Source: Bacilli bacterium
GTDB lineage: Bacteria; Bacillota_I; Bacilli_A; MAG-NZ
Length of the DNA: 53,220 bases
NCBI GenBank assembly: GCA_018401215.1
Contig: JAGYLA010000003.1
Location: 1-53,220 of the forward strand
Direction: 5' to 3'
Shown: in pieces, positions 10,971 to 48,032 of the stretch
Layout of the letters: every line of letters begins with the position of its first letter
Position numbering within the stretch: the stretch's first letter is position 1
Translations under genes and position numbers: made by a program
Notes under the pieces: generated by a model
Database searches by the model: none
What the model saw: the letters and a program-made list of their open reading frames with translations, nothing else
What the model was told of the DNA's origin: nothing

Positions 10971-11510
10971 ATGGAAACAGCTCGTTTGATCATTCGTCGT
11001 TTTACCATTGCCGACAAAAAGGATGTGTACGATTATGCAAAACATCCAGAAGTCGGCCCCAATGCTGGCTGGAAACCGCACACATCGGTTGAGCATTCAG
11101 AAATGATTATTCGCAATATTTTCTTGCTTCAAACTCATGGCTTTGCGATTGTCGACAAAGCAACCAATAAGGTCATCGGTTCGATCAACTTACACAAACG
11201 ACCGTTCCTGCGTAATTATGAACTGGGCTATAGCTTAAGTTATGACTACTGGGGTCAAGGGTTGATGAGTGAAGCTGCAGCCGCGTTGCTTGCTTATGGC
11301 TTTGATCAACTCGGAGCACGCCGCATTTTTGCCAAAACCGATACCAACAATGCCCGCAGCAAACGCGTCTTGTTGAAACAAGGAATGACCCACTATAAAT
11401 TCAAACCCCAAGATTTACGGCGATATGATGGCACCATCATTGATATGGACTATTTCGAACTCACAAAGGAGCAATGGCGTACGCATGCAAAAACCCAAAG
11501 GAACCGTTGA
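10971..11510 (+). CDS. GNAT family N-acetyltransferase (RimJ/RimL-like)
   Basis: METARLIIRRFTIADKKDVYDYAKHPEV...LGYSLSYDYWGQGLMSEA...GARRIFAKTDTNNARSKRVLLKQGM. Confidence 0.9.
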   Translation: METARLIIRRFTIADKKDVYDYAKHPEVGPNAGWKPHTSVEHSEMIIRNIFLLQTHGFAIVDKATNKVIGSINLHKRPFLRNYELGYSLSYDYWGQGLMSEAAAALLAYGFDQLGARRIFAKTDTNNARSKRVLLKQGMTHYKFKPQDLRRYDGTIIDMDYFELTKEQWRTHAKTQRNR

Positions 11511-12720
11511 TATTACCCCCCAAACCATTCGGGGCTGGCATCAACTAGAAGAAGCAATCAAAAGCTTGACGCAGATGTACCACATTCAAGAAATTCGTAC
11601 GCCTGTGTTTGAGACCACGGAAGTGTTTCACCGCAGTGTTGGTGAACTCAGTGACATCGTCACCAAAGAAACCTATACCTTTTTCGACCGTGGCGAACGC
11701 TCCATGACTCTGCGTCCTGAAGGCACCGCCGGGATTGTCCGTAGTTTGATTGAACAAAAGCTCTACATTCAACCGCAAAAACTGTATTATACCGGTCCGA
11801 TGTTTCGCTATGAGCGACCACAAGCCGGCCGCCAACGACAATTCCACCAATTTGGTGTGGAATACTTTGGTTATGAGGATGCTGCCTCTGATGCCGAAAT
11901 TGTTGCGTTTGCGGTCACTTGGCTTGAACTTCTTGGGATTCACGATTACGTATTAAAAATCAATTATTTGGGAGACCATGAGACAAAAGCTCGTTACACC
12001 AAAGCGCTCGTCGATTATTTTACCCCAATCAAAGCGACGTTATCAAAGGACAATCAATCCCGACTAGCCGTAAATCCGCTGCGAATCCTTGATGATGCCT
12101 CACTTGATTTGCAAGGACTGCCAACGATTGAATCGATGCTGTCTGACGCAGAACAAGAGTATTTGCAACGCTTCTCAAGTTACTTGGATGCCTTACAAAT
12201 CCCCTTTGAGCGAGACCCACGCATTGTTCGGGGGCTTGATTATTACACAGGAATTGTCTTTGAAGTCCAATCAACGCACCCGTCGTTTGGTTCTCAAACC
12301 GCGCTACTTGGTGGCGGTCGATATGATCAATTGGTTGCGGAGTTTGGTGGACCACAAACCCCCGCAGTTGGCTTTGCTGCTGGACTCGAACGCGTCCTGC
12401 TCGCCATGGAGTATGAGGGAGTGTTGGAGCCACCAAAAGATGGAATTGACGTTGCGGTTTGTTTTATGCCAGAGACCGCAACCGATGCATTTCGTTGACC
12501 CAAAGCATTCGTTGAGTGGGTATGTAACAGAAATGGCGACGCCATCGAAAAACTTATCAATCAGCTCAAACAGGATTTGGTAAAAAGACCCAGCGGTCAT
12601 CGTCATTGTTGCAGTCGACGAATGGGCCGAAACAACAGAGTACTGGTCAAATTTGACAGCAAACGCAACCATTCCCGTCCGATCAATTGATCGATTACTT
12701 GGATGGCGTAATGGAGGCCA
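11485..12720 (+). CDS. hisS: Histidyl-tRNA synthetase; C-terminal anticodon-binding domain disrupted by frameshifts after about 12490
   Basis: MQKPKGTVDITP...LRPEGTAGIVRS...VRGLDYYTGIVFE...AVGFAAGLERVLLA; after ATDAFR* the homology continues in other frames. Confidence 0.9.
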
Positions 12721-14454: not shown

Positions 14455-14847
14455 ATGGACATTCGACACGAACAACGAATTCGCATCATGCAAGTCTTAT
14501 ACAACCAAGATGTTCGTCAAATCTCTTTGGATGAGGCGCTTTTGGTCGTTTCTCCGTTTGAAGATATCGCCGCCAAATGTCATCTAATTCTCGCTCAGTT
14601 ACCAACCCTTGACGCCTTGATTGAAGCCCACCTTACCGGTTGGACCTTAGCAAGACTGAATGCGGTCGACCGAGCGATTTTGCGTTTATCGGTCTATGAA
14701 CTAACCAATGAAGATTTGCCCGCAGCAATCGTTATCGATCAAGCGATTGAGCTCAGCAAAGAATACTCCGAAACGGACGATATTTTAACCTCAAAATTTA
14801 ACAATAAAGTATTAGATACGATCAAACAATCGGTGAAGTATGAGTGA
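14455..14847 (+). CDS. nusB: Transcription antitermination protein NusB
   Basis: MDIRHEQRIRIMQVLYNQDV...VDRAILRLSVYELTNEDLPAAIVIDQAIELSKEYS. Confidence 0.9.
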   Translation: MDIRHEQRIRIMQVLYNQDVRQISLDEALLVVSPFEDIAAKCHLILAQLPTLDALIEAHLTGWTLARLNAVDRAILRLSVYELTNEDLPAAIVIDQAIELSKEYSETDDILTSKFNNKVLDTIKQSVKYE

Positions 14848-16110
14848 GTACATCACGATTTCACAACTCAATAAATCGATCAAACTACTCTTTGAGCAGT
14901 CCCCTTTCTTGCGCCGTATTTCGGTAATGGGGGAAATTTCCAACTTCAAAAAACACTCAAGTGGTACGTTTTACTTTACGCTCAAGGATGAATCCAGTGA
15001 CTTGCGGGCGATTATGTTCCAAAGCAATGCGAATAAAATGACCACGATGCCTTCTAATGGTCAAAAAGTCATTGCGACCGGGGACGTGAGTGTGTATGAA
15101 GCACGCGGGGAATACCAATTGTATGTCACGTTAATGCGCCCCTTTGGAGCCGGGGACATATACGCTCGCTTGGAAGCACTCAAAGAACTAATCACCAAAG
15201 AAGGACTCCTTGATGGCAAGAAAACCCTGCCCAAATACCCCCGTGTCATTGAAGTCCCATTACATCCTGCCGACAATTGCCGCGATTCAAGACATTCAAC
15301 ATACGACACCATCGCTTTCCGCTTGACACTTGGGCTATACCCAGCGTTGGTACAGGGGATGGTCTGAGTATTCGATTGTCGATCGAATTCAAAAGCCGAT
15401 CACCGGAAGCCGAAGCCGATGTCTTGAGGAGTTGTCGGTCGCGGTGGTACAGAGAGCATCGAGAGACTTATGGGCCCTTCAACGGGAAGCATGAATTCGA
15501 GCCATTGCCGCTTCAGTCATTCCGATGCGTTGGTGCAGTTGGTCGCGAAACTGGCACAACACTTGCTGATGTCGTCGCAGACATGCGAGCCCCAACCCCA
15601 ACTGCTGCCGCTGAACTTGCGGTTCCGGACCAAGCAGAGATCCAACAAGGACTCGCAACCACCAATTATTATTTGAAACAAACCATCGCAAGGCGATGGC
15701 AAGATGCCTTCAAACAATACGAACGATTCATTCAATCATATGTCTTTGTTCAACCGGAACGCTTACTGCAAAACAAAGAACACCAATTTGAACGGCAGCT
15801 GAACCGCTTGCAAGCGATGTCCCCATCCAACAAGGTGGAACGCATCGATCAAGCCTTACAAACCACCACCACGAAATTGACGACGCGCTTTGACCAACGG
15901 GTGCAACGTTGGTCCACCGACGCGCAGCAATTACAAACATCACTGGTGGCGCTCAACCCCAAAGCCGTTTTGCAGCGGGGCTATGCAATGGTCCAAGTTG
16001 GTGACACGCTCATCGACTCAGTGAATAAATTAACAACCAACCAAACCATTCAAGTGACCTTAAGTGATGGTCACGTTGACGCAAACGTCGACAAGATAAG
16101 GAGACAGTAA
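14840..16110 (+). CDS. xseA: Exodeoxyribonuclease VII large subunit, frameshifted at about 15255-15590
   Basis: ITISQLNKSIKLLFEQSPFLRRISVMGEISNFKKHSSGTFYFTLKDE, later frame DVVADMRAPTPTAAAELAVP. Confidence 0.9.
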
Positions 16111-18641: not shown

Positions 18642-20298
18642 ATGTTGCGCGAACTCAAAATTCAAAACTTTGCGATCATTGAAAACAGCGAACTTTCGTT
18701 CGCCCCAGGAATGACCGTCTTGACCGGTGAAACAGGAGCAGGAAAAACCATCATCATTGATGCGTTGTCACTGTTACTTGGGACACGAGCGAACATTGAC
18801 ATGATCCGTTACGGCGAAACCAAAGCCGTCATCGAAGGGGTGTTTGATGCGCCAAGTGAAAAATTACTTGCCGTGTTAGCCCAAATGGACATTCCCAAGG
18901 AAGCGCTACTTACGATTACGCGGATCGTCCAAGAAGGACGCAGTACCACGCGCGTCAATGGCGTAAGTGTCACCAGCAAAGAATTGAAAGATTTGAGTTT
19001 GTATTTGTTGGACATTCACGTTCAACACGACACGATGCGCTTGTTTGACCCGAGTCGTTATTTAGAACTACTCGATGACTATGCGCAAACTTCCATCACG
19101 ACCTATCAAGAACTACGTAGCAAGTACAATAACGCGATGCAAGACTATCTTGATTTTTTAGCGCTGGAAAGCCAAGCCAAAGAACAACTCGATTACTGGC
19201 AATTTCAATACCAAGAACTCGTTGACTTAGAACTCGTTGACGGCGAAGCCACAAAGTTGGAAGAAGAACGCGCAGGATTAAAAAACTACGACAAAGTCTA
19301 CGACCTCTTGCAACGGGCAACCAGTGCCGATGCAGATGCGAGTCGTTTGATGGTAGAAAGCTTATCCGCAATGTAAAAATTAGCGGCGCTTGATGTTGCG
19401 AATGAGGACATCGAACGTGCTCAAAGTGCCTATTATGACTGGGTAGATGTCGTTGATACCTTAAAAACGAGGTTAGCGACCTTACAATACGATCCCGACC
19501 GTTTGGATGCGATTGAAACCAGACTGCAAGAATTGACGGCGTATCAGCCGCAAATACAAATGTACGATTGATGAACTGATGGACAAGCAAGGCCTTAAAA
19601 ACGCAAATTAATGCGTTTGAAGATGCTTCCGCCACCAAGGAGCAACTGCGACACATTATCAAAGCGGCATTTGACCTTTTAATGAACAGTGCAACTGGAG
19701 TTAACCGCAACCCGAACGCAGGCTGCGACGACGTTGCAAACTCGGCTGGTTGATGAAGTCAAAGAACTGCATTTGCACATGCGCAAGTCGCCATCATTGT
19801 ACAAAACAACGCCTCCTCAGGATGAACTTGATCACACAGCGTTTGGTGACCATGGCCTGGATTCAGTGGAGATTGAACTGACCACCAACAAAGGAGAATC
19901 CCTTAAAACCACTTGCCAAAGTCGCAAGTGGTGGGAAATGAGCCGCGTCATGCTCGACTCAAACCGTCTTGCTGCAAGCATCGGGGTTGTCGACAATCAT
20001 TTTTGATGAAATCGATCAAGGCGTTAGTGGCGCCGTTGCGCAGTCAATGGCAGAAAAACTCAAACGCTTATCGACCACAACACAAGTTTTATTGATTACG
20101 CATTTGCCGCAAGTCGCCGCAATTGCTACCACGCATTTGTTGGTCAAAAAACAAGAAGTCGGCGAACGAACGATTTCAACCACCGTGTCACTTGACGATG
20201 CAGCCCGCATTCAAGCGATTGCGGAAATGATTTCCCCCGCAGCAGTCACGGAAAAAAGCTTAGCACTTGCAAAAGAATACCGCGATCGTTACCAATGA
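18642..20298 (+). CDS. recN: DNA repair protein RecN, middle (about 19376-19970) broken by frameshifts
   Basis: MLRELKIQNFAIIENSELSFAPGMTVLTGETGAGKTIIIDAL at N-term; TIIFDEIDQGVSGAVAQSMAEKL...VLLITHLPQVAA at C-term. Confidence 0.92.
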
Positions 20299-20325
20299 AA
20301 AAAGCCCAGATGGGCTTTTTTTTAT
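20299..20325. terminator. Terminator between convergent recN and aldo/keto reductase
   Basis: aaaaaagcccagatgggctttttttta. Confidence 0.8.
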
Positions 20326-21149
20326 GATAATTCAATGTTGTCGGCGTCAGGATATAACTTGTTTGCCTTGTTTAACGTACGAATTTGATTCATTTGTTCG
20401 TCGGTAAGTTCAAGATACTGAGCGGCTAAATTTTCAGTAATGCGAGAAGGAGTGACCGATTTTGGCAAACTGCCCCATCCTCGCTTGGTCAACCAGGCAA
20501 TGGCGATTTGCGGAACCGATGCGTGATGAGCGTTTGCAATCTCTTGCATCACCGGATTGTCAAGCATCGAATGAATCGCAAAACTCATCAGTGGTGCATA
20601 ACCTTGCATGACAATGTGATGTGACTTACAAAATGCTTCTAATGGATGATTTTGCAGTTCGATATGACATTCCACTTGATTGATCATCGGCTTGACAATT
20701 GCAGTTTCAAACAAGTGTTCCAGATGATGCACCGTAAAGTTACATACCCCAATCGCTTTGGCTTTGCCAGTTTGATAAATGTGCTCCATCGCTCGCCAGG
20801 TCTCGGCATCGGCCGCATAGCGCGTTGGCCAATGCATCAAAAACAAGTCGACATAAGGTAGCTGTAAACGAGCAAGCGAATCGTGAAAGGATTGTAGAGT
20901 GGATTCATAGCCATGTTCGGTTTTGTACACTTTGGTCGTAATAAAGAGTTCGTCTCTGGGAATGTGACTATCGGCAATCGCTTGACCAACTTGGGTTTCG
21001 TTGTTGTAGCGAGTTGCTGTATCAATGTGGCGATATCCAACACTAAGCGCATGAGCAACCGCATCGTATGTGGTTTGATCGTTCGTGCGAAAGGTACCAA
21101 GGGCAACCAGTGGCATGACGATTCCATTGTGTAATTGAATGGTTTTCAT
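20322..21149 (-). CDS. Aldo/keto reductase (copy 1)
   Basis: GIVMPLVALGTF...GYRHIDTATRYNNETQVGQAI...LFLMHWP...KAIGVCNF. Confidence 0.93.
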   Translation of the reverse strand: MKTIQLHNGIVMPLVALGTFRTNDQTTYDAVAHALSVGYRHIDTATRYNNETQVGQAIADSHIPRDELFITTKVYKTEHGYESTLQSFHDSLARLQLPYVDLFLMHWPTRYAADAETWRAMEHIYQTGKAKAIGVCNFTVHHLEHLFETAIVKPMINQVECHIELQNHPLEAFCKSHHIVMQGYAPLMSFAIHSMLDNPVMQEIANAHHASVPQIAIAWLTKRGWGSLPKSVTPSRITENLAAQYLELTDEQMNQIRTLNKANKLYPDADNIELS

Positions 21150-21206
21150 TGGTTCCTCCTAATACTAGTTTAACAAAGAAAAACGAAGCGCGTGTTTCGC
21201 ACTTCG

Positions 21207-22031
21207 TTAAAAATCAGTATTATCTGGGTCCGGGAAGGTACGACGGGCTTTGTTTAGTTTTCGAATCGCTGCCATGTCGGCTTCATCGAGTTGGACATTC
21301 AGTGACTGGTAGTTTTCTAACAAGCGTGTTTCGTTTGTGCTTTTGGGTAAGACGATGATGTTGCGTTCTAATAACCACGCCAAGGCAATTTGAGGAACGG
21401 TCGCTTCGTGCTTGTCAGCAATCGTTTGAAGCGCTTCATTATCTAACAAGTCTTGGACTTTGCTGCTTAGCAGCGGCGCATACGCTTGCAAGTGAATGTC
21501 GTGTTCTAGACACATTTCTTGTAAGAAGATGTTTTGCAGTTCAACATGACATTCGACTTGGTTGATCATTGGTTTGATGGTTGCTGTTTCAAACAAATGT
21601 TCCAAATGGTGAATTTTGAAGTTGCACACACCAATCGCTCGGACTTTCTTTTCCTGATAGAGTTCTTCCAACGCCCGCCAACTCGATGCATTGCGCTCAT
21701 ACGATTTGGGCCAGTGAATCAAATACAAATCCAGATAGTCTAGGCCCAATTTACTCAAACTCAAGGCAAAGGCGGTTTTGGATTCTTCATACCCATAGTC
21801 ACTAGGCCACAGTTTGGTGGTGATAAACAATTCTTCTCGAGGAACACCAGAATCCTTGATGGCTTGACCCACTTGCTCTTCGTTACGGTAAATCATTGCC
21901 GTATCAATGTGGCGGTACCCCATTTTGATTGCGGCCAACGCTGCCGCATAGGCTTCATCGCCCGCTGCCCGAAACGTTCCCAGTGCCATCATCGGAATTT
22001 TGACGCCGTTATGTAATGTTAGGTTTTTCAT
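21207..22031 (-). CDS. Aldo/keto reductase (copy 2, paralog of the adjacent gene)
   Basis: MKNLTLHNGVKIPMMALGTF...GYRHIDTAMIYRNEEQVGQAI...LYLIHWPKSYERNASSWRALEELYQEKKVRAIGVCNFKIHHLEHLFE. Confidence 0.93.
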   Translation of the reverse strand: MKNLTLHNGVKIPMMALGTFRAAGDEAYAAALAAIKMGYRHIDTAMIYRNEEQVGQAIKDSGVPREELFITTKLWPSDYGYEESKTAFALSLSKLGLDYLDLYLIHWPKSYERNASSWRALEELYQEKKVRAIGVCNFKIHHLEHLFETATIKPMINQVECHVELQNIFLQEMCLEHDIHLQAYAPLLSSKVQDLLDNEALQTIADKHEATVPQIALAWLLERNIIVLPKSTNETRLLENYQSLNVQLDEADMAAIRKLNKARRTFPDPDNTDF

Positions 22032-22092
22032 GGTGCCTCCTTGTAAAAAAATCGTATCATATCTGAGCGAAAAAAAAGAACCCAAACGGGTT

Positions 22093-23232: not shown

Positions 23233-23286
23233 ATGTTCACCGATTCGATTATATCATGAGAGCGAATTAGCGTGTATAATGGGGAC

Positions 23287-24340
23287 ATGAAAACAACTCC
23301 TTGGATTGAACAAGCAAAAACACATTGTCAGTTTACAACGTGGACCCCCGTGCAAGAAGCGGTGATCCCAGTTTTTTTGCGTCGCCAGTCCGTTGTTGTT
23401 CGTTCGCAAACCGGCTCGGGAAAAACTCATGCATTTTACTCCCGATGATCGATCAATTAACGACGGATCAAACCTTACAAGCGGTCATTTTATCGCCGAC
23501 AAAAGAACTTGCTGAACAAATTTACGCGCAAGCCGTGCATCTTCAGCAAATCAAACCTTTTACGGTGCGGTTTGCTGCCGGTCGCACGACGACCGAGAAA
23601 ACGACTGTACCGCAGTTGTTAATTGGAACCCCTGGAAAGTTAGAAGACATCTTAATCAAGCAATCCAGATACAATTTAAAGACCGTCAAGATGTTAATCA
23701 TCGATGAAGCGGATATGGCGTTAGAAGAAGGATTTTTAAACCGTCGATCAAGTCGCCGGCCATTTACCAAACGACTTACAAATGGGCGTCTTTAGTGCAA
23801 CGATTCCTAAAGGCTTGTGAACCTTCTTTAAAAAATATTTGAACAATCCCGGAGTCTATCCACCCTGGAGACGCTGATTTGGATTTGACTTAATATCAAT
23901 ACAAAGTCGCCCTGGAACAAGCGTTTTGCAGGCCTTGCTGAAGTCGTCAGTGCGATCTACGCTGTTTGTCGGAATCATCTTTGTAATACCAAAGAAGATG
24001 TCTGACGTGTATGAAAACTACAAGATCATGTCGAAAGCACAAATGGTCCATGGTGGATTGCCTGCTCGGGGCCGCAAACAAATCATGCGCCGGATTAAAA
24101 ACCATGAGTTTCGTAATACGTTGCCAGCGACATTGCTGCGCGCGGCATTGATATTCCCCGATGTCTCCCACGTGATCACCTTATCAATTGCCCAAAGACT
24201 TGAGCTTTTATCCGCACCGCGCGGGTCGAACGGGTCGCATTGGCGTGGCCTGGTGATCAATTTGATAGATTACGATGACGATGGAGCGATGAAACTATTG
24301 ACATTCCCATGAAAAACTAACGATACCGACGGTTCGCTTC
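23287..24340 (+). CDS. cshB: DEAD-box RNA helicase (CshB-like), with several frameshifts
   Basis: MKTTPWIEQAKTHCQFTTWTPVQEAVIPVFLRRQSVVVRSQTGSGKTHAF then +1 frame LLPMIDQ...PTKELAEQIY...LLIGTPGKLEDI...MLIIDEADMAL. Position next to ispH and nfo matches Bacillus. Confidence 0.8.
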
Positions 24341-25252: not shown

Positions 25253-25280
25253 AAAAGAACCTTCGGGTTCTTTACTTTTT
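25253..25280 (+). terminator. Terminator after nfo
   Basis: aaaagaaccttcgggttctttacttttt. Confidence 0.75.
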
Positions 25281-25308
25281 CTCCTATATGTTATATATTT
25301 CTAACATA
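25271..25308 (+). promoter_or_regulatory. Putative promoter plus operator-like inverted repeat upstream of the FAS1 operon
   Basis: TTTACT (25271-25276), 17-bp spacer, TATATT (25294-25299); inverted repeat TATGTTA-N8-TAACATA at 25287-25308 spans the -10. Confidence 0.45.
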
Positions 25309-25350
25309 ATGAGTGATTAAAATATCATTTATAAGAAAGAGTGATTTCGT

Positions 25351-26073
25351 ATGCGATCTATCCTGTACTTCACTTTAGCAGCTGTGTTGTTGTCAATGAG
25401 CTCAATAGATTCCCTTGAAGCTTCTGATAAGACTGAGGAAGTTGGTTGTATCAGTTTAAGCAATTCATTCAGCTTGGTGGAGGTGTTAGAACAAACTGGC
25501 CGCCACGCCACCTTTTTGCAGTTGATGCAACTGCATGACATGGAAGGATATCTTATATTAACGGACCCCGATTTGTCCGATAAAACAATTTGGGCACCGA
25601 GTGATGAGGCGTTTGCGAGCATTTCATCCGACTTAAACAAACTCTCTAGCTTGGAAATCAAAAAAATACTAGGCTATCATATTTCACCCCCTCAAAGCAG
25701 ACCAAATGGGGAATATCCCATCATTACGTTCGCCTATTTGGATGAGAATCCAAATGATGTCTTTCGAACACGCACCGGCGTATTGACAGAATCTGATCAA
25801 CGTATTTCGTTATCACTAAGAGAGGATGGCTACTATATTGAAGACTCAAAATTGGAGTCTACAATGTGGTGTGCGAAAGCGGGGTCTGTCTTTTCCATCA
25901 CCTCTGTTATTACCGATGTAGAGCCACCTTCTACTCTGACCTTTATTGGATATCGATTGGTTCGAATCTTACTTTATGAAGATATTCGGTTCACCATTTA
26001 TGCAACAATCCTAGGGGTTGCCCTAGGAACAGCAATCTCGATTGGAATTCGTAAAAGAAGGAGAACTTCATGA
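25351..26073 (+). CDS. Secreted/membrane-anchored FAS1 (fasciclin) domain protein
   Basis: N-terminal signal-like segment, FAS1-like LVEVLEQTGRHATFLQLMQLHDMEGYLI...TIWAPSDEAFASI...LKKILGYHI-type region, C-terminal TM plus RKRRR anchor. Confidence 0.75.
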   Translation: MRSILYFTLAAVLLSMSSIDSLEASDKTEEVGCISLSNSFSLVEVLEQTGRHATFLQLMQLHDMEGYLILTDPDLSDKTIWAPSDEAFASISSDLNKLSSLEIKKILGYHISPPQSRPNGEYPIITFAYLDENPNDVFRTRTGVLTESDQRISLSLREDGYYIEDSKLESTMWCAKAGSVFSITSVITDVEPPSTLTFIGYRLVRILLYEDIRFTIYATILGVALGTAISIGIRKRRRTS

Positions 26074-26438
26074 CACCAAAATTTAATTACATTAGTTTAT
26101 TAGCCATTTTTTCCTTACCCGCGTTTACCGTGTTCGTTACCGATGTGGCGTTAGACACAACCATTTCACTCTCATTTGGATACTTACTCTACTTAGGATA
26201 TGTAAAAACCCCGATGGATGAATTGTTCTTACAACGTGTCCAACAAGCAGCATCGATTACGTTGCTAATTGCGGGCTTAACGATGAGTGGCGTCTTTATT
26301 GCCGTTTTTTGGGCGGCGAATACTGAAAGCTTCATCAATACGAGTTATTGGATTGTGTTCTTATTGATCCATGTCATCTTCAATGTGTCATTAACCGCCC
26401 TGTTAACGCTGGATTCAAAGGGGTCCAGCAATGCGTAA
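26070..26438 (+). CDS. Small multi-TM membrane protein (~4 TM) of unknown function
   Basis: ATGA overlap with upstream gene; hydrophobic segments around GYVKTPMDELFLQRVQQAASIT. Confidence 0.7.
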   Translation: MTPKFNYISLLAIFSLPAFTVFVTDVALDTTISLSFGYLLYLGYVKTPMDELFLQRVQQAASITLLIAGLTMSGVFIAVFWAANTESFINTSYWIVFLLIHVIFNVSLTALLTLDSKGSSNA

Positions 26439-26646
26439 GCTTCATAATAAGATTCGCATGCACCGCGCCGACCAACGCATGTCGCAACAAGAACTCGCCG
26501 ATAAAGTGGGAGTTCGCCGCGAAACGATTGGTAGCTTAGAAAACGAAAAGTATAACCCTTCCTTGCAATTAGCGTTATTAATTGCCGAAGCACTACATAT
26601 CCCGATTCAAGAACTATTTCAATTAACGAAGGAGAAATCATCATGA
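26431..26646 (+). CDS. XRE-family HTH regulator (small, YozG-like)
   Basis: LHNKIRMHRADQRMSQQELADKVGVRRETIGSLENEKYNPSLQLALLIAEALHIPIQELF. Confidence 0.92.
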   Translation: MRKLHNKIRMHRADQRMSQQELADKVGVRRETIGSLENEKYNPSLQLALLIAEALHIPIQELFQLTKEKSS

Positions 26647-27683
26647 GTGAATATCAAATTAGTCCCATTACCCCAGCCATCGAATCCAAGCTACCTGAAG
26701 TTGCTGAACGAGCGTTTGGCAAAGGTGTGAGCATTATTCTACCGAAAAAGAACCTATGGGGTTTTTATGCTCATGCAGACGGCAAGATTGGTGGCGCTGT
26801 TTATCTCAAGAAGTGGGCGGACAATGAAGGATGCTTAGAATGGATTTATGTCGATCCCTCTGCCCAAGGTCATAAATTAGGCAGTCGATTATTTCGTGCT
26901 GGCATTGATGGATTAAACGATGCCAAGTTACCCATATTATTTACGCTCGTTCGAGGATCTAACACAGCCTCATGGAGTATGTTCGCCAAAGAAGGATTTG
27001 TGAAGCCTTCTGTGTTTCATACATTGACACAGTATTCATGGAAGAGCTTTTATCACCGCTTGGGCTTTCATCTAGCCGACGGATATAACATTTGGGTCAA
27101 GGATTCTTCGCTAGACCTACCGATGCATCCGATTCGTTATGGCTTCTTGAAAACCTTCCTATTTGCAGGGCTAATCGGATTAGCCTTAGGACTGTTTGGC
27201 TTACGTGGCGTGGATACCTTATTGATTACAATTTCCACATTGCTGGTCGTCACAGGACTGCGCATTGTTATTGAATACCTTGTTGGTCGATCCTACGGAC
27301 CGCTTCGTTGGAATGCCCCCCAAGGAGGAACGCTCCTTAGTTTCGTTATCGCACTGACTGGAACGTGGTGGCCATCGTTTGGGCATTTTAGTCCCAAAGC
27401 AGACATTTACCGCGATAGTGATTATGCCAAAGTAAATGCCTACAGCCGCTTTGCTACCTTGATGTTTCATGTATTGATTTATGTTCTAGCTGCGATTCTC
27501 GTCCCTGATTTATTCAGTAGTGGATATGGATTGATTTTAGGTATTGTTCTTGCTGTCCAGCTATTTCCGACCTTTCCTGTCGACGATTCAGATGGGTCTC
27601 GAATCTATGCCTACAGTAAACCGTTATATTTTATTGCCTTGCTTACTGTCGTCTTAGCCTATGTAGGCACAATCATATTCTAA
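26643..27683 (+). CDS. GNAT acetyltransferase domain fused to a C-terminal multi-TM domain
   Basis: N-terminal GNAT (LEWIYVDPSAQGHKLGSRLFRAGIDGL...ASWSMFAKEGF); C-terminal half strongly hydrophobic with FPVDDSDGSRIYAYSKPLY. Confidence 0.8.
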   Translation: MSEYQISPITPAIESKLPEVAERAFGKGVSIILPKKNLWGFYAHADGKIGGAVYLKKWADNEGCLEWIYVDPSAQGHKLGSRLFRAGIDGLNDAKLPILFTLVRGSNTASWSMFAKEGFVKPSVFHTLTQYSWKSFYHRLGFHLADGYNIWVKDSSLDLPMHPIRYGFLKTFLFAGLIGLALGLFGLRGVDTLLITISTLLVVTGLRIVIEYLVGRSYGPLRWNAPQGGTLLSFVIALTGTWWPSFGHFSPKADIYRDSDYAKVNAYSRFATLMFHVLIYVLAAILVPDLFSSGYGLILGIVLAVQLFPTFPVDDSDGSRIYAYSKPLYFIALLTVVLAYVGTIIF

Positions 27684-27716
27684 AGAAAACGCTACTCGTT
27701 AAAGTAGCGTTTTTTA
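27683..27716 (+). terminator. Terminator of the FAS1/HTH/GNAT operon
   Basis: aacgctactcgttaaagtagcgttttttatt. Confidence 0.8.
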
Positions 27717-43557: not shown

Positions 43558-45486
43558 ATGAGCGATCGCTATAGCGAACAATCAATTCAAATACTAGAAG
43601 GCTTAGAAGCCGTCAAAAAACGCCCTGGCATGTACATTGGCTCGACCGATACCCGCGGATTGCATCATTTGGTGTGGGAAATTGTCGACAACGCAATGGA
43701 CGAAGTCTTGATTGGGGCCGCCGATCAAATTCATGTCACGATTCACGAAGACAATTCCATTCAAGTCACCGACAATGGCCGCGGCATTCCCATTGGGATG
43801 CACGGCTCTGGCATTCCAACCCCGCAAGTCATTTTTACCAAACTCCATGCGGGCGGAAAGTTCGGGGGAGACTCTGGGTATAAAATGGCCGGTGGTTTGC
43901 ACGGCGTTGGCGCCAGTGTCGTCAATGCGTTAAGCAAGTGGCTTGATGTAACAATTCACAATCAAGGCAAAGTGTACACCCAGCGCTTTGAAGATGGCTC
44001 AAACATCATTGGTGATGCCGTCATTACTCCAGGAACCAAAAAAACCGGAACGAGTGTGTGGTTCAAACCCGATCCTAGTATCTTTTCTACCACCTTATAT
44101 TCGTACGATTTGATCAAAGAACATTTAAAACAGTCCGCGTATTTGATCAAAAACGTGCAGATTCATTTGCTTGATAAACGTTCACACGTCGAAGAAACCT
44201 TCCATTATGAAGAGGGTATTTTGGCGTTTGTCAAAAGTTTGAACGAAGGCAAAGACAGTTATCACCATCCCATTTACTTTGAAAGTGTTGCTGAATTGAT
44301 TGAAGTTGAAGTCGCGATGCAGTTCACCAAAGGTTACTTTGATACCTTATTGAGTTTTGTGAATAATGTTCGGACCAAAGATGGTGGCACGCATGAAACC
44401 GGCTTTAAGGTCGGGTTGACAAAAATTGTCAACGAACATGCACGCCGCTTAGGATTACTCAAAGAAAAAGAAGTCAACTTGGACGGGGTGGACATTCGAG
44501 AAGGGTTGACGGTCGTTTTGAGCATTCGCATTCCTGAAGCATTGCTTCAATTTGAAGGCCAAACCAAAGGCAAGCTTGGCACACCTGAAGCACGCAGTGC
44601 GGTGGAGAACGTCATTGTTGATAAACTACGCTATGTGTTGGAAGAACAAGCCGATTTTGCCCATGAACTAATCAACAAATCACTCGATGCAAGACGGGTG
44701 CGAGACGCCGCTAGAAAAGCGCGTCAAGACGCACGAATGGAGAAAAAACGCAGTAAATCTGAAGTGTTACTGTCCGGAAAGCTCTCTCCTGCGACCAGCA
44801 AAGACCCCAAACGCAGTGAACTGTTCCTTGTTGAAGGGGACAGTGCGGGAGGCAGTGCCAAACAAGGTCGAGACCGCAACTTTCAAGCGATTTTACCCTT
44901 GCGGGGAAAAGTCATCAATGCGGAGCGAGCTTCGATTGACGACGTCATCAAAAACGAAGAAATTTCAACGATCATTCATACGATTGGTGCTGGACTTGGG
45001 GTAGACTTTGATATTTTAAAATCCCGCTATCACAAAATCATCATTATGACCGATGCCGACACCGATGGTGCCCACATTCAAGTCTTGTTGCTGACGTTTT
45101 TCTTTCGCTATATGCCGGACTTGATCAAACAAGGCAGGATTTACTTGGCGCAACCGCCGCTATATAAAGTCAACTACGCATCCGGCAAAAAGGAATCGTC
45201 GTATGCTTGGAATGATGATCAATTGACCAAATTATTGGCCAAAAACAAAGGCACCATTCAGCGCTTCAAAGGGCTTGGAGAGATGAACGCCGATCAGCTA
45301 TGGGATACTACAATGAACCCGCGCACTCGCACGTTAATCAAGCTACAAATTGAAGACTTTTCTGATGCTGAAGGACGCATTCGTGTTTTGATGGGCGATA
45401 GTGTAGAACCACGTCGTGAATGGATTGAGGCGAACATTGCCTTTGTGGAAGAGGACGATTTCTTGATTGGTGAGAATCATGAGTAA
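43558..45486 (+). CDS. parE: DNA topoisomerase IV subunit B
   Basis: LEAVKKRPGMYIGSTDTRGLHHLVWEIVDNAMDE...ELFLVEGDSAGGSAKQGRDRNFQAILPLRGKVINAE; pairs with parC. Confidence 0.95.
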   Translation: MSDRYSEQSIQILEGLEAVKKRPGMYIGSTDTRGLHHLVWEIVDNAMDEVLIGAADQIHVTIHEDNSIQVTDNGRGIPIGMHGSGIPTPQVIFTKLHAGGKFGGDSGYKMAGGLHGVGASVVNALSKWLDVTIHNQGKVYTQRFEDGSNIIGDAVITPGTKKTGTSVWFKPDPSIFSTTLYSYDLIKEHLKQSAYLIKNVQIHLLDKRSHVEETFHYEEGILAFVKSLNEGKDSYHHPIYFESVAELIEVEVAMQFTKGYFDTLLSFVNNVRTKDGGTHETGFKVGLTKIVNEHARRLGLLKEKEVNLDGVDIREGLTVVLSIRIPEALLQFEGQTKGKLGTPEARSAVENVIVDKLRYVLEEQADFAHELINKSLDARRVRDAARKARQDARMEKKRSKSEVLLSGKLSPATSKDPKRSELFLVEGDSAGGSAKQGRDRNFQAILPLRGKVINAERASIDDVIKNEEISTIIHTIGAGLGVDFDILKSRYHKIIIMTDADTDGAHIQVLLLTFFFRYMPDLIKQGRIYLAQPPLYKVNYASGKKESSYAWNDDQLTKLLAKNKGTIQRFKGLGEMNADQLWDTTMNPRTRTLIKLQIEDFSDAEGRIRVLMGDSVEPRREWIEANIAFVEEDDFLIGENHE

Positions 45487-48032
45487 AAAAAACATCAAGG
45501 ACACGTTACTCGAATACACCGAAAAAATCATTGATTCTAGGTTGGAAGACGTTGTTAGTGAGCGCTTTGCAACGTATTCGAAATACATCATTCAAGAACG
45601 CGCCCTACCCAACGTCAAAGACGGGTTAAAGCCTGTTCAGCGCCGAATTTTGTATGGCATGTACAAAATGGGCATGATGAGTGACAAACCGTATAAAAAA
45701 TCAGCGCGAATTGTTGGAGAAGTGATGGGGAAATATCATCCCCATGGAGACTCAAGCATTTATGAAGCGATGGTTCGTTTATCGCAAGATTTTAAAACAA
45801 ACATGCCCCTGGTTGACATGCACGGCAACAACGGCTCCGTTGATGGAGATTCTCCGGCTGCAATGCGCTATACCGAAGCCCGTTTGACCCCGATTGCCGA
45901 AATGCTACTCAAAGACATCAACAAACACACCGTCGACTTTATTCCAAACTTTGACGACGAAGAGTATGAACCGATTGTATTGCCGGCCAGATTTCCAAAC
46001 TTGCTGGTCAACGGAAGCACCGGCATTAGTAGTGGTTATGCAACTGATGTACCACCACATAATATTACCGAAGTTTTGCATGCGGTAATGCGCCGCATTG
46101 ATGAACCGAATTGTACGCTTGAATCGCTCCTGGACATCATGCCAGGGCCAGATTTTCCAACCGGTGGAACGATTCAAGGAATGGACGGCATCAAAGAAGC
46201 GTATGAAACGGGCAAAGGCCGAATTGTGCTACGCGGAACCATTGAAACAACCCCATCCCAACTAATCATTACGCAATTACCTTATGATGTAAACAAGGCA
46301 GTATTGGTTCGCAAAATTGATGAAATTCGCGCCGCTGTTAAAGTACCAGGGATTACTGAAGTTCGTGACGAAAGTGACCGCGAGGGATTACGAATTGTCG
46401 TCGATACAAAAAAAGGCGCAGACCAAGACGTTATTTTAAACTACTTGCTTAAAAACACGCTCTTGCAACGTTCTTACAACTTCAACATGGTCGCGATTCA
46501 CAACGGTCGCCCTGAATACATGGGCTTGTTTGCGATGCTGGATTCATACATCCTGCATCAAAAAGATGTGATCACCAACCGCAGCAATTACGATTTACAA
46601 AAAGCCTCCTTGCGTAAACACATTGTTGAAGGCTTGGAAGCAATGGTCGACATTGTCGATGACATCATTGTATTAATCAAACAAAGCAAAAACAAAGCCG
46701 AATCAAAAGCAGCAATCATCAAACAATTTGGCTTCACCGAAGACCAAGCCGAAGCAATTGTGACATTGCAACTGTATCGCTTAAGCAACACGGACATTAC
46801 CGCGCTGCGCCAAGAAAGCAAAGAACTCGGCCTAGAAATCAAGAAATTAGAAGGCATTCTCTCAAGTGAAGAGTTGTTGAAGACGGTCTTAAAGGCGGAA
46901 ATTGAAGCCTTATTGATCGACTTTGATATGCCAAGGCGTTGTGCAATTGAAGCGGATATTACTACGATTCGCTTGGCCGAAGAAGATTTGATCAACGAAG
47001 AACCAACGGTTGTTGCAACGACCGCGCTAGGATACGTCAAACGCGCTTCAACCAGATCTTACGGCGCCGTGAAGGAACAAGAAGCCGGCTTGAAACCGGA
47101 TGATGTCTTAACAGGGGTCTTTGAAACGACCACCTTTGCGACATTGCTGGCCTTTACCAACAAAGGAAACTATGTGTATTACCCGGTCTTTAAGCTTCCA
47201 GATGTCAAATGGAAGGACTTGGGCACGCAATATCTCCAACTTGGTCAGCATCGATGCCGATGAAGTTCTTGTCCAAACCCAAGTCATCGCAACGTTTGAT
47301 CCAGCGATTGACGTCTTAATCACCACCCGCAAAGGGATGATTAAACGGACCTCACTCGCAGAGTACAATGTCACACGCTACTCAAAAAAAATGAAAGCAA
47401 TCAAGCTCAAAGCAGGAGATGTAGTGGTTAGTGTTGAGGTTGGCAGTGCGCAAGCCATCGCCATTACTACCAAACAAGGGATGCTCAGTGTCTTTTCGAC
47501 CCTAGAAGTCCCACAATCTGGCTTACTCACCTCAGGGGTCACTGCGATCAAATCCAAATTCAAACAAGACGCAACCACCGGCGGACACTTTATAAGCGAT
47601 CAGAGCGATTTATATGCCCTGACAACGCGCGGACACATCATTCGAGTCGATGTAGCAGGGTATGAGCCCAAAGGCCGCTTACGCGTTCCTTATCAGCTAA
47701 CCACACCAATCAAGAGTAACCCACACGAACTCTTGCATACGATGACCCTTGCTAAGGCAAGTTATAGTGCCCATGAGCTTGTGACCATCCAAGCAACCCC
47801 GCCCGTCACCATCGATGCCTTTGACATCAAATATCCACAAAGCGATAACGGGAAGAAGTTTAGTCAAGCCGGTCAAACCAATCTGACTCGGTTGTATGCG
47901 ATTGCCCGAGCAACACAGTTTACAGCAGTCAACCTCGAACCACCGATTCCACAAGAACCCCCACCAAAGACAGCGAAACCTGACGTAGAAACCAAGCAAA
48001 TTCGTCTAGAATTGGAAGAAACAGAGGACTAA
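45479..48032 (+). CDS. parC: DNA topoisomerase IV subunit A, one frameshift near 47232
   Basis: YSKYIIQERALPNVKDGLKPVQRRILYGMYKMGM...AMRYTEARLTPIAEMLL; homology continues in ORF 47121-48032. Confidence 0.95.

Follow-up and report, generated by a model that had tools for sequence, protein, structure and literature searches.

Between nfo and ispG in the window (by which we mean the whole 53,220-nucleotide stretch of DNA analysed here) lie four overlapping genes of one orientation, and the question they raise is whether a surface protein, a membrane protein, a regulator and a membrane-bound acetyltransferase form a single functional system, and what that system might do. The features of the locus are as follows.

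25271-25299, + strand, sigma-70-type promoter, TTTACT-N17-TATATT (9/12 consensus matches)
25289-25306, no strand assigned, 18 bp candidate operator palindrome, TGTTA-TATATTTC-TAACA (motif search)
25351-26073, + strand, FAS1 protein gene (ORF call)
26070-26438, + strand, TM protein gene, DUF3796-like (ORF call)
26431-26646, + strand, XRE HTH regulator gene (ORF call)
26643-27683, + strand, GNAT-membrane fusion gene (ORF call)
27684-27715, + strand, intrinsic terminator with a 13-bp stem (fold -15.6 kcal/mol, z -4.21)

The original prediction described an operon with stop/start overlaps and its own promoter and terminator, and this description is correct: the three overlaps (FAS1/TM, TM/HTH and HTH/GNAT) are 4, 8 and 4 nt long, the promoter lies in front of the FAS1 gene and a strong stem lies behind the GNAT gene. 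The nfo terminator at 25254-25273 sets the operon apart from nfo, and the terminator behind the operon is probably shared with the convergent ispG gene. The predicted FAS1, HTH and GNAT domains all exceed their Pfam cut-offs, with Fasciclin (PF02469) at 27.5 bits against 22, HTH_3 at 53.9 bits against 23, and Acetyltransf_1 (PF00583) at 36.1 bits against 20.7. The source genome assembly is incomplete (78.6% complete), and all four operon genes are intact. Elsewhere in the window several housekeeping genes (hisS, xseA, recN, and those for a DEAD-box helicase and a topoisomerase/gyrase A subunit) look frame-split or truncated, at 11425-12583, 14840-16110, 18642-19376, 23272-24312 and 45467-48032, which suggests assembly frameshifts in the source genome. 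At 20322-22085 the minus strand also has two aldo/keto reductase genes in tandem.

Homologues of the GNAT fusion were sought in 395 genomes of the class, such genome searches being samples. Full-length homologues, 43-46% identical, are found in four genomes of a single genus, g71, which belongs to another family of the class, and the gene is kept in all four g71 genomes searched (G331, G234, G090 and G289); the source family is thinly sampled, and none of its three other genomes has a close homologue. In G331 and G234 the TM, HTH and GNAT genes stand in the same order with overlapping starts, and the window trio agrees with these relatives. The G090 contig begins inside the HTH gene, with HTH and GNAT present. 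In G289 (L012:7140-7900) frameshifts have degraded the HTH gene, a stop codon interrupts the TM reading frame and no operator is left, with the GNAT fusion still intact. No FAS1 gene lies beside the trio in any g71 genome with trio genes, and by this comparison the conserved unit is three genes (TM, XRE and GNAT fusion), not four. The sites also differ, being nfo/ispG here, whereas in g71 the neighbours are glgC and a YefM/YoeB-like pair; the presence of the trio in another family at a different site suggests that these genes have travelled as a unit from one lineage to another. The YefM/YoeB-like toxin-antitoxin genes are directly 3' of the GNAT gene (L013:6226-6747, L014:6616-6888 and L015:1212-1500).

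Judged by its relatives, the TM protein appears to belong, as a divergent member, to Pfam family DUF3796 (PF12676). By itself it falls below Pfam detection; it is 35-50% identical to the L012, L013 and L014 proteins, of which the L013 homologue (36% identical) scores 28.0 bits against the PF12676 cut-off of 24.8 and the L014 homologue is just under it at 24.4 bits. A more distant relative, L030 in G074, scores 41 bits. The family search found DUF3796 genes also in G074, G318, G290 (two), G024 and G033; those of G074 and G318 and both of G290 have an XRE gene close behind them and no GNAT gene. In C. difficile, too, a Tn6189 variant is reported to have an HTH gene next to a DUF3796 gene (PMC11983580). 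The TM and HTH genes of the window appear to be one instance of a recurrent DUF3796/XRE pair that is known but almost unstudied: they have the overlapping downstream XRE gene typical of such pairs, and the recognition-helix block GVRRETI, which does not vary among the seven paired regulators that were compared. In a full-text search DUF3796 scarcely appears, and literature searches for XRE/membrane-protein pairs and for GNAT-membrane fusions gave nothing specific.

An alignment of upstream regions first revealed a shared palindrome, and in the window the promoter -10 box falls inside it. TGTTA-N8-TAACA has a single match in the window (0.04 expected), and a relaxed form, TGTKA-N8-TMACA, lies upstream of the DUF3796 genes of L013, L014, L028, L029, L030 (twice) and L059. 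When a refined motif was searched in 14 whole genomes, all ten matches fell in six genomes (G000, G090, G234, G331, G074 and G290), every one of which carries DUF3796; the reversed-motif control gave four matches, none in these six. The whole source genome has one match and none to the reversed control. The motif is absent from the whole genome of G289, where the HTH gene is degraded, and only variant dyads are present at the DUF3796 pairs of G318 and G290 C5. Larger inverted repeats lie upstream of DUF3796 in G290 (L059:4850-4950) and G318 (L058), namely TGTGATATATTT...AAATATATCACA and TGTGGTATATTT...AAATATACCACA, and their form suggests paired operator half-sites. Solo DUF3796-like genes with no adjacent HTH gene occur at L028:4036-4437 (G090) and L029:2820-3236 (G234), and both have the same operator 28 nt upstream. 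This suggests control in trans, and these genes are possibly a trans regulon of the trio's regulator. Three of the ten refined matches are in G074 upstream of other small membrane-protein genes (L122:3017-3140 and L123:3646-3700), which encode 2-TM proteins and a 141-aa protein; these copies suggest that the regulon of that genome extends to further small membrane proteins.

Recurrence of the TM-HTH-GNAT order and overlaps in another family, together with recurrence of the 18-bp operator, indicates linkage above chance, so that comparative sequence evidence gives good support to a functional link of these three genes within one operon. The original prediction had all four genes co-functional; this stands for TM, HTH and GNAT, which are together in g71 with a common operator, but not for FAS1, which is not a conserved partner. 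The HTH protein is better seen as the autorepressor in a DUF3796/XRE pair than as a free regulator, and the prediction's statement that no named system has this composition is right for the four-gene set and not for the TM and HTH half.

The proposed output of the operon includes the GNAT fusion, which has a GNAT domain at residues ~1-155 and a multi-TM domain at ~165-346. Its AF2 model has a pLDDT of 76.6, and the GNAT half is modelled well, with matches to RimI-type folds (Foldseek RimI E=1.2e-7); in both sequence and fold the domain resembles RimI- and phosphinothricin-type acetyltransferases. The acetyl-CoA loop reads AQGHKLGSRL in the window and AHGLSIGKKL in g71, and canonical QGQGIG and QGRGIA are seen in L016 and L017; since the window's AQGHKLG is not the canonical QGxGxG ((Q/R)xxGx(G/A)), catalysis is not certain. 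Pfam and NCBIfam scans and a PDB profile search found no match for the membrane half. Distant homologues of the fusion are present in G290 and G214, on a plasmid of the cyanobacterium Acaryochloris marina (L124:3497-4591, E=2e-6 with the G214 membrane domain) and on a plasmid of the haloarchaeon Natronorubrum bangense (L125:3980-5194, 5e-21 against the Acaryochloris protein). The last two are annotated as GNAT family only and stand alone, and these relatives point to an unnamed fusion family that crosses domains of life. The window fusion itself gave no match when searched against plasmids, and a virus link was rejected, as no relative was found on viral contigs. In G214 and G290 the fusion stands away from any DUF3796 or HTH gene, suggesting that the switch is not needed for the enzyme to work.

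The C-terminal domain of the fusion has a PxxPxDG-like motif in register with the NLLPxxPLDG of small M50 enzymes, and hhalign comparison with M50 gave P ~0.007-0.013 against 0.43-0.53 for single-side reversed controls. The membrane half might on this ground be a degenerate site-2 protease fold that lost its zinc site, kept an LDG-like motif and came to serve an acetyltransferase, within the membrane, as a domain for substrate binding or docking, in a family that spans Bacilli, cyanobacteria and haloarchaea and was captured by the DUF3796/XRE switch in a few Bacilli. The HExxH zinc motif is missing from all nine family members, however, there is no Pfam match to Peptidase_M50 and none among the 50 Foldseek matches listed for the AF2 model, so this kinship is a lead, and we think it unlikely. 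An archaeal-type M50 bait (a composite sequence) searched against plasmids retrieved other S2P types.

We propose that the XRE protein is an autorepressor of the operon, that its DUF3796 membrane partner relieves this repression, and that the output is the membrane-tethered acetyltransferase together with the surface FAS1 protein. To this reading as a whole we give an even chance, and its parts are of different strength. Co-inheritance of the trio and its common operator emerge from the comparison of genomes, repression of the operon by the XRE protein is strongly inferred, and relief by DUF3796 is suggested by analogy with Bacillus subtilis, where SdpI sequesters the autorepressor SdpR at the membrane (PMC1626106). 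The XRE protein would bind the palindrome and repress the operon, and the DUF3796 protein, made together with it through overlapping translation, would sense an envelope change or a membrane-active compound and then sequester or inactivate the repressor as SdpI does SdpR. Derepression would supply the membrane-tethered GNAT enzyme, which might protect or remodel the envelope by acetylating a small molecule, lipid or protein associated with the membrane. The surface-anchored FAS1 protein would have joined the regulon here through insertion of its gene between the operator and the TM gene. Against this reading stand the divergence of the window TM protein, the fusions of G214 and G290 that lie apart from DUF3796 and HTH genes, the variant dyads of G318 and G290 C5 and the non-canonical acetyl-CoA loop.

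A related idea is that the operon serves detoxification or resistance, the GNAT fusion acetylating an antibiotic or peptide at the membrane, the DUF3796/XRE pair detecting the same compound and FAS1 being incidental. The likeness to RimI- and phosphinothricin-type enzymes, the Tn6189 genes mentioned above and the differing contexts of the trio in different families would all suit it, but the solo GNAT fusions have no obvious resistance gene neighbours in the stretches seen, and we regard it as possible though somewhat unlikely.

The FAS1 protein bears on a further alternative, in which all four proteins form one envelope complex, a surface sensing and modification machine. The four genes are co-directional, overlapping and behind a single promoter, and the FAS1 protein has hydrophobic segments at residues 1-22 (N-terminal and signal-like) and 215-233, the latter a C-terminal TM anchor. 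The trio is without adjacent FAS1 in every relative found, however, and fasciclin genes occur in just 5 of 198 relatives, elsewhere as longer multi-FAS1 proteins at other places, so that such a complex is quite improbable; as a conserved four-gene system the set was rejected on the same ground. The position of the palindrome suggests another history. In six relatives the nearest copy is 16-35 nt before the DUF3796 start codon, and in the window it is 45 nt before FAS1 and 764 nt before the TM start, not immediately upstream of the DUF3796-like gene as it is in DUF3796/XRE pairs elsewhere. The most likely, because simplest, history is that FAS1 was inserted behind the operator and ahead of the TM gene, and in the preferred reading, that of a DUF3796-relieved XRE repressor, FAS1 would be induced along with the trio and is probably no core part of it.

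Two other explanations fare worse. An addiction or defence module, in which the membrane protein would be a toxin and the XRE protein an antitoxin or a phage-type control protein, is hinted at by generic hits of the XRE protein to models of antitoxins and control proteins and by the YefM/YoeB-like genes behind the g71 GNAT gene, but PADLOC gave no match for the TM protein and marginal ones for FAS1 and GNAT (0.008 and 0.003), G090 and G234 retain solo DUF3796 genes that have no HTH neighbour, and the G289 GNAT gene is intact despite its broken HTH gene and TM stop; we think it very unlikely, and a defence or toxin-antitoxin identity was rejected for want of specific PADLOC support. That the four are chance neighbours in a compactly packed genome with no function in common, short gene overlaps being frequent in bacterial operons, is contradicted for TM-HTH-GNAT by conservation of the trio across families and by the shared operator, and is extremely unlikely.

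Among known systems, the SdpI/SdpR immunity switch of Bacillus subtilis resembles the window operon in that a regulator and a polytopic membrane protein are encoded together, the likeness here coming from gene architecture and the operator. SdpR is ArsR-type, whereas the window regulator is an XRE protein; SdpI belongs to a different membrane family, and no toxin gene was recognised beside the window operon. RimI/PAT-type GNAT N-acetyltransferases share the fold and sequence of residues ~1-155, unlike the fusion in lacking its ~180-residue multi-TM domain, for which Pfam has no match, and site-2 proteases (Peptidase_M50) share the PxxPxDG-like motif and differ in HExxH, HMM match and fold match. 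The locus suggests that membrane-embedded GNAT enzymes form a family, so far without a name, common to bacteria and archaea, and it provides an example of a surface protein that appears to have joined a regulon when its gene was inserted behind the operator, ahead of what had been the first gene. We know of no description of this operator or of the coupling of a DUF3796/XRE pair to a membrane GNAT enzyme. Another likeness is to the DUF3796/XRE pairs of Bacillota, with their multi-TM DUF3796-like protein, overlapping XRE gene, GVRRETI helix and TGTKA-N8-TMACA-type operator; the window differs in its GNAT-membrane fusion after and FAS1 before the pair, and in a very divergent DUF3796 protein. 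Such pairs gain a DNA operator and a small regulon, both predicted, the latter including the solo DUF3796 genes, and an output enzyme, which make their putative role as membrane-relayed repressors directly testable.
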